In this document: in pieces, positions 33,655 to 33,899 of the stretch
How positions within the stretch are numbered: position 1 is the stretch's first letter
Layout: the number at the start of each line of letters is the position of its first letter
Assembly: GCA_903839695.1 (NCBI GenBank)
Contig: CAIMDI010000006.1
Span: 1-40,009 of the forward strand
Source of the DNA: Candidatus Tayloriibacteriota bacterium
GTDB lineage: Bacteria; Patescibacteriota; Minisyncoccia; Phycocordibacterales; PALSA-1337
DNA: 40,009 nt
Reading direction: 5' to 3'
The notes under the pieces: generated by a model
What the model was told of the DNA's origin: nothing
Seen by the model: the letters and a program-made list of their open reading frames with translations, nothing else
The model's database searches: none
Made by a program: the position numbers and the translations under genes

Positions 33655-33726
33655 GGCCCTATCGTCTAATGGTTAGGACATCGCCTTCTCAAGGCGGTAA
33701 TCCGGGTTCGACTCCCGGTAGGGTCA
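33655..33726 (+). tRNA. tRNA-Glu (CUC)
   Basis: Acceptor GGCCCTA (33655-33661) with TAGGGTC, including one G-U pair; D-arm GTC...GAC; anticodon stem TCGCC/GGCGG with loop TTCTCAA giving anticodon CUC; T-arm CCGGG-TTCGACT-CCCGG. Discriminator A at 33726. CCA is not encoded, unlike the tRNA-Gln in this window. Confidence 0.94.
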
Positions 33727-33899
33727 CAGATTTTGAATGAGCGCAGCGAATGAAAAAGCTGTGACACTAAGCATGCAAACTGCTTTGCATGCGTCCGGGA
33801 GGAGAAGAGCTTTGCGATATTTATGAGGAACTTTGTTCCGAATAAATCGCAAAGGTGTACTGAAGCTGTAAGCTTCGACTCTAGGTCAGCGTCACCTAG
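33727..33899 (+). ncRNA. Candidate structured RNA downstream of tRNA-Glu
   Basis: No gene reads here, but four complete stems occur in a row, plus one that borrows the tRNA 3' end. They are 33771-33779 with 33784-33792 (9 bp, 4-nt loop); 33810-33831 with 33835-33854 (about 18 bp with a 2-nt bulge and a 2x2 internal loop); 33862-33867 with 33871-33876 (6 bp); and 33881-33886 with 33894-33899 (6 bp). 33723-33729 also pairs with 33759-33765. GC content is above the surrounding genes. No match to tmRNA, RNase P, SRP or 6S RNA could be recognised. It could be a small RNA or repeat elements. Confidence 0.45.

Follow-up and report, generated by a model that had tools for sequence, protein, structure and literature searches.

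Structured units tailored to transfer RNA tails in Patescibacteria: the hairpin cluster behind a tRNA-Glu gene

Introduction

What is the run of hairpins that stands directly behind a transfer RNA (tRNA) gene in a member of the Patescibacteria, in a region where no gene is evident? The locus lies in a 40,009-nucleotide stretch of DNA (here the window) from a Candidatus Tayloriibacteriota bacterium, and follows the gene for tRNA-Glu(ctc). A first-pass annotation, made from the letters of the window alone, proposed the cluster as a possible new structured RNA. It is a worn, partly decayed copy belonging to a family of units of ca. 170 bases, which stand behind tRNA genes and carry inverted and direct copies of the tail of the tRNA in front of them. 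That this family is real and tailored to its tRNAs can be held with near certainty, and the first-pass annotation was right about the structure and probably wrong about RNA.

No description of the unit family was found in the literature searched, with bioRxiv and most subscription papers outside its reach, and the architecture could not be matched to any described system in the searchable papers; within these bounds the family is previously unreported.

Detection and Distribution of the Family

The strong evidence that the structure in the window goes beyond chance is comparative. A BLAST search of the 177-nt region against its own genome gave no second copy; short matches to it are found in half of 60 relatives, nearly all of them directly behind tRNAs and on the same strand. 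A covariance model of the type I core (model R1), built from 25 copies, has matches in 41 of these 60 relatives, the richest genomes holding 40, 32, 24 and 22 copies (the 32 belong to genome G038; genome G045 holds 20). The window's own genome has three such matches, two of which follow tRNA-Ser(tga) and tRNA-Ser(gct), and tRNA-Arg(gcg), beside the tRNA-Ser(tga) unit, carries a type II unit missed by the model. Behind the tRNA-Ser(gct) unit a second unit without its middle is present, apparently through deletion between AGCGAG repeats (L128 1740–1810, G000:C9).

Across ca. 85,000 species genomes an exact core pattern occurs only in Patescibacteria/Paceibacteria and unnamed bins, the matching lineages being Taylor-, Nomura-, Kaiser-, Lloyd- and Yonathbacteria. 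The same pattern has zero matches in IMG/VR, so no viral carrier was found. In a phylum-wide sample 7 of 145 match, and several weak matches from other classes keep the layout but have cores of their own; these include tandem units of 117 and 123 nt that look exact. One architecture is thus shared by at least three core types.

Architecture and Covariation of the Unit

Directly behind a tRNA or transfer-messenger RNA (tmRNA) gene, the unit consists, in order, of hairpin H1, A′, hairpin H2, T′, hairpins H3 and H4, and a direct copy of the last ca. 18 nt of the tRNA. A′ is the reverse complement of the acceptor 3′ strand and T′ that of the T-loop and T-stem 3′ strand, and the typical unit, ca. 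170 nt long, contains no gene.

The secondary structure was assessed on 113 distinct copies in an alignment fitted to the model, with the original 25-sequence MAFFT alignment giving the same picture of covariation. Standard pairs fill 91.8% of paired cells, against 61.9% after shuffling, and 34 of the 36 pairs show two-sided changes; in H2, 96.8% of cells are paired. Sliding the pairing partners abolishes the signal. Covariation in homologous loci, which the first-pass annotation had put forward as a check, is therefore massive, and the structure is under selection. Within one genome, units that follow different tRNAs are 84–99% identical over H3–H4 but differ in H1, A′, H2, T′ and the tail, suggesting that the core spreads or is homogenised and that the arms are re-tailored.

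Tailoring to the tRNA

A tRNA or tmRNA gene ends less than 80 nt upstream in 87 of the 113 copies, and within 3 kb in a further 15, with some 38 isoacceptor classes and one tmRNA covered by units. The right tail copy agrees with its own tRNA at a mean of 15.9 of 20 nt, compared with 10.8 for other tRNAs, and is identical over all 20 nt (20/20) in 36 of 82. T′ is a perfect 11/11 complement of the own tRNA in 49/82, against 2.2% for other tRNAs; when at least 11/12 complementary positions are counted, the shares are 73% for own and 6.6% for other tRNAs, and for A′, at 7/8 or better, 40% and 4%. Position by position, the copied stretch extends from R57 of the T loop to about 73/74, and in the copies compared in this way H2 is located at the T-stem/acceptor-stem boundary of the inverted copy. 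The nearly whole genome G038 (685,693 bases) has 34 tRNA/tmRNA genes, 18 of which have a tail copy within 500 nt, compared with 3.6% of controls, and about 30 of its 32 model matches follow tRNAs by the count made here. A simple dispersed repeat, the deflating outcome foreseen in the first-pass annotation, does not describe such a family: the copies are dispersed, yet each is customised to its tRNA.

A second possibility, tRNA mimicry in which A′ would copy the tRNA 5′ strand, was rejected from locus L002, where A′ (TTGACCCTA) is the exact complement of the tail (TAGGGTCAA) and the tRNA 5′ strand reads TGGCCCTA. The unit found behind a tmRNA (L123 8238–8825, G049:C2) has a tail copy matching the tmRNA 3′ end, which suggests that the target is anything with a T arm. 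Another unit (L040 1360–1560, G045:C10) follows an orphan T-arm-like sequence in which an open reading frame has its 3′ end; no tRNA was detected there, and the right tail of the unit is of the tRNA-Asn type.

The Copy in the Window

All parts of the unit can be placed on the forward strand of the window. The docking locus is the tRNA-Glu(ctc) gene itself (33655–33727; ARAGORN, and Rfam RF00005 with 62.6 bits), whose tail (33707–33727, TTCGACTCCCGGTAGGGTCAC) is the source of the sequence copied by the unit. It is followed by H1 (33728–33760), a variable segment with the palindrome GAATGAGCGCAGCGAATG, recognised from the sequence and by comparison with other copies, in which this position holds an intrinsic-terminator-like hairpin or a gene. 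A′ (33761–33769, GTGACACTA) is the reverse complement of the acceptor 3′ strand and discriminator of tRNA-Glu with one mismatch, while T′ (33795–33806, CCGGGAGGAGAA) is that of the T stem 3′ strand and T loop, decayed, with two mismatches. Joined, they give the tRNA-Glu tail in reverse complement, with H2 (33770–33794) inserted between them. H2 is the conserved hairpin at the T-stem/acceptor-stem boundary of the inverted tail, established by its perfect 9-bp stem and by covariation. H3 (33808–33856), a long hairpin with a 2x2-type internal loop, is defined by pairings, comparison and covariation, the latter two also defining H4 (33862–33876), the hairpin GAAGC-TGTAA-GCTTC and the best-conserved part of type I units. 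To the right, the tRNA tail is repeated directly from R57 to its 3′ end (33877–33895, GACTCTAGGTCAGCGTCAC), likewise in decayed form, so that the window copy shows mismatches in T′ and the right tail as well as one extra base. Model R1 matches at 33769–33887 with 100.2 bits (E 2.5e-24), the window copy being itself among the 25 sequences behind the model.

The inverted repeats reported in the first-pass annotation are all present: 33719–33734 with 33754–33769 (16 nt, 88% complementary), 33771–33779 with 33784–33792 (9 bp, perfect), an interrupted stem of 33803–33818 with 33846–33861 plus 33819–33831 with 33835–33847, and 33862–33866 with 33872–33876. The first of these takes in the tRNA 3′ end, as had been pointed out, and this turns out to be the rule for the family. 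Overlooked at that stage were two links to the tRNA, namely that between 33795–33806 and the T arm (reverse complement, imperfect) and that between 33877–33895 and the tRNA 3′ end (direct copy, decayed). The statement that no sensible reading frame is present also holds, the region being covered only by a spurious 80-aa antisense frame, as does the failure to match a known RNA class: the Rfam covariance models give only the tRNA at this locus at the gathering threshold, and a permissive search gives chance-level matches.

Against dinucleotide shuffles, the folding energy of the region alone has z = -3.65 (1 of 200 shuffles as good) and that of the region with the tRNA z = -5.26 (0 of 200). The opposite strand of the region folds equally well (z = -4.61), so folding energy alone is no pointer to RNA.

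Insertion, Arrays and Gene-Bearing Segments

The tRNA-Glu(ctc) locus next to murF was compared in seven genomes of the genus. It holds a type I unit in the window genome, is empty in G001 and G002, and carries a type II unit in G003 and G006. In G004 a type II unit is broken by an IS110-family transposase (L041, G004:C9, 2803–3873, forward strand), and in G005 no unit is seen before the contig ends. Every right tail fits its own tRNA, as with GACTCCC in G003 and GATTCCC in G006.

Units stand in tandem behind several tRNAs, among them tRNA-Trp, -Lys, -Leu and -Gln. In one Kaiserbacteria case the tail of a tRNA-Gln recurs at +153, +1314 and +2284, and between these copies lie the genes for a 283-aa protein without a Pfam match and for an AAA_18-like protein; a DUF4260 protein is encoded ahead of the unit behind one tRNA-Asn. 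Such gene-bearing segments, which end in a unit with a perfect copy of the tail, are a minority. Insertion, tandem arrays, presence or absence between species and gene-bearing segments are the behaviour of a DNA element, and the units are, with good probability, inserted, mobile DNA.

Two further segments were also observed. In G031, two near-identical tRNA-Tyr-type units, the second at a non-tRNA site, flank 5.2 kb (L042/L139, G031:C22; L042:1387–6865) that encode a large serine recombinase, a G2P-type rolling-circle Rep and proteins without assigned function, possibly a single-stranded DNA phage or plasmid that used or hit a unit. At L074, upstream of 3132 on the reverse strand, an XRE regulator and a protein that is Fic/DOC-like by eye lie between tRNA-Tyr and the unit, in a segment bordered by long inverted repeats and a second copy of H1.

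DNA or RNA

G-U pairs constitute 2.6% of the standard pairs in H2, 2.0% at the base of H3, 4.0% in its upper part and 0.7% in H4, compared with 6.6% in the tRNA stems of the same loci, about three-fold lower in the units and a small share for an RNA. Among 88 copies, 83 form a hairpin at H1 and 36 have a T-run there; such hairpins are terminator-like and situated between tRNA and unit, so that many tRNA transcripts should end before the unit is reached. The scarcity of G-U and the terminator-like hairpins make folded, single-stranded DNA the preferred reading. Outside upper H3, G-T is more frequent than A-C among the non-Watson-Crick cells, which hints that it is the tRNA-sense strand that folds.

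The foremost rival explanation would nevertheless make the unit a structured RNA, the 3′ trailer of the tRNA transcript, in which A′ and T′ would bind the 3′ end of the tRNA, in cis or in trans, and act as a maturation switch between the tRNA fold and the trailer fold. Strong covariation, the drawing of the tRNA 3′ end into a joint fold (the z of -5.26 above) and the excess of G-T over A-C, as expected for a folding top strand, are all in keeping with it. It is opposed by the rarity of G-U relative to tRNAs, the equal folding of the opposite strand of the window copy, the terminator-like hairpins that separate tRNA and unit in many copies, and the occurrence of the same tRNA with or without a unit in species of one genus, and it leaves the second (direct) tail copy and the gene-bearing segments unexplained. 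Such a switch is unlikely, and DNA is more probable than RNA as the substance of the unit. Of the new structured RNA proposed in the first-pass annotation, the conserved, covarying secondary structure is borne out; its RNA nature is put in question by the scarce G-U, the terminator-like hairpins and the DNA-element behaviour.

Proposed Mechanism and Its Rivals

The architecture is read directly from the copies compared, and the mechanism can be proposed from it with moderate confidence. The unit would act as single-stranded DNA, in which the inverted copy, A′-H2-T′, would anneal to the direct copy of the T and acceptor strands, so that the tail of the tRNA is reproduced as a duplex: H2 would project from one of its strands where the T and acceptor parts meet, and H3 and H4 would occupy the tip of the folded strand. 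A tyrosine recombinase, in the simplest case the one XerA-like enzyme of the host, would then pair this folded site with the matching chromosomal tRNA tail, and exchange of one strand would leave the unit flanked by two tail copies and the tRNA intact. The logic would be that of integron cassettes, where folded attC enters double-stranded attI, or of CTX phage, with tRNA tails replacing attI or dif. Both attC and CTX attP(+) depend on their fold more than on their sequence, react through a single strand and have a chromosomal partner site (PMC2727003, PMC4246890). Folded-strand recombination by the units comes close to an even chance. The broader reading, in which Patescibacteria at large would possess an integron-like system without a dedicated integrase, using tRNA tails as attachment sites, re-tailorable folded units, host Xer and passenger genes shuffled in tRNA-anchored arrays, is put forward more tentatively, and the assignment of Xer as the acting enzyme is doubtful.

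With regards to that enzyme, most genomes have one tyrosine recombinase (Phage_integrase); the two inspected are of the XerA type and fall far below the integron-integrase cut-off. The single XerA-type enzyme is the sole recombinase common to the unit-rich genomes tested, and units occur in 39 of the 54 genomes with Xer.

Several observations weigh against folded-strand recombination driven by Xer. Of the 6 genomes in which no Xer was detected, 2 also have units, and copy number does not follow the enzyme, which nearly every genome has, including genomes without units. No dedicated mobility gene for the units was found among the families tried (Phage_integrase, IS110, reverse transcriptase and Y1 transposase), none of which tracks copy number. 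The right tail copies are decayed or cut in about 40% of units, and at least one unit, behind tRNA-Phe in G038, ends in a tail resembling that of tRNA-Lys, an outcome not expected from a simple one-site exchange. Most units are gene-less, so the term cassette suits only a minority, and the G-T excess would equally be given by a top-strand RNA. The model also gives no account of how A′, T′ and the tail get refitted to a new tRNA. Hints on the crossover point from near-identical units conflict, the G031 pair indicating the T/acceptor boundary and the G038 tRNA-Phe unit the 3′ end.

A host-maintained, non-mobile DNA structure at tRNA loci, serving as an insulator, a terminator or a decoy with a spare tail copy for invading integrases, would accord with genomes in which about half or more of the tRNAs carry a unit, with the homogeneous cores within a genome and with mobile elements in or beside units (IS110 in G004, a serine integrase and Rep in G031). 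Close relatives entirely without units, tandem arrays and gene-bearing segments speak against this, as does the fact that a decoy has no need of an inverted copy or of H2–H4, and the proposal is decidedly improbable.

Slightly weaker again is RNA-guided or target-primed insertion. Here A′-H2-T′ would serve as a split guide to the tRNA gene, where a staggered cut would duplicate the target site and so give rise to the tail copy. The perfect tail duplications and the complementarity of A′ and T′ to the target fit such a process. Reverse transcriptase was rejected as mobiliser, RVT_1 being absent from the unit-rich genomes G057, G038, G049, G045 and G046; an RVT_1 domain in the window's genome (G000:C2:870–1525) is split into two parts that differ in frame, and may belong to a broken reverse transcriptase gene. 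IS110, found in 6 of 60 genomes, has no link to the units and does not track their copy number, so the IS110 inside the G004 unit is taken as an incidental insertion, and Y1 transposase is absent from the unit-rich G038 and G045. The guides of IS110 bridge RNAs are also not directed to one and the same strand. TIGR-Tas, weighed for its occurrence in parasitic bacteria, was set aside on the geometry of the arms (Tas itself was not searched): A′ and T′ both address one strand, whereas TIGR dual guides address opposite strands (PMC12045711).

That the units are remnants of tRNA-integrated islands or phages, with the tail copy as attR and hairpins due to chance, is very improbable: although integration at tRNAs ordinarily leaves a duplicated tail behind and 5.2 kb with integrase and Rep lie between two units in G031, covarying structure, inverted tail copy and constant spacing recur at dozens of isoacceptors in many families, and most units are ca. 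170 nt without an island.

Comparison With Known Systems

Integron attC sites combine a conserved fold with little sequence conservation over 57–142 nt (PMC2727003). The units resemble them as imperfect palindromes of variable sequence with a conserved single-strand fold, as a split inverted repeat with extra bases on one strand, and in sitting beside a double-stranded partner site; as in integron cassettes, the unit is at the 3′ end of the mobile segment and tandem arrays are formed. They differ in that no integron integrase and no single array platform were found, the aligned copies conserve no R′′/R′ boxes (RYYYAAC/GTTRRRY) and the unit ends are tRNA tails. Furthermore, the tails of all tRNA genes serve as partner sites, each unit has arms specific to its tRNA, units without a gene are in the majority and recombination is inferred.

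The attP(+) site of CTX is ca. 150 nt long and has two inverted att sites ca. 90 bp apart, which act as a folded single strand with host Xer (PMC4246890). The units likewise contain two inverted att-type copies able to anneal in one strand (A′-T′ against the tail copy), but their target is a tRNA tail rather than dif, the target sequences are many, the typical unit has no phage genome and the part of Xer is conjectural.

Location at tRNA 3′ ends and a direct tail copy at the far boundary are shared with tRNA-targeted integrative elements. Islands, tycheposons and casposons carry an integrase or casposase and are without an inverted tail copy, while the units are ca. 170 nt, gene-less as a rule, and present at most isoacceptors and tmRNA. 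REP/BIME with RAYT and the IS200/IS605 hairpins are also short, multi-copy palindromic DNA hairpins, recognised as single strands; however, Y1 transposase is absent from several unit-rich genomes, and the units are tied to tRNA tails with copies of the tRNA. Complementarity to the tRNA 3′ region is a property of T-box and other tRNA-binding RNAs, unlike which the units do not read the anticodon, are not located upstream of amino-acid genes, have no Rfam match and favour DNA.

Significance

Patescibacteria have small genomes and few known gene-capture routes. Structured units distributed across the phylum, reaching 40 per genome and copying the tails of nearly all tRNAs, would represent a new mode of DNA targeting that is self-tailored to the tRNA of the host. 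The changing arms around a constant core raise the question of what rewrites the arms. Should the folded-strand model be true, integrons, CTX-type phages and tRNA islands would be linked, and the origin of integron-like recombination would become testable with one host enzyme. The unit family would also account for the tail duplications behind tRNAs and would mark sites of gene gain in such genomes.
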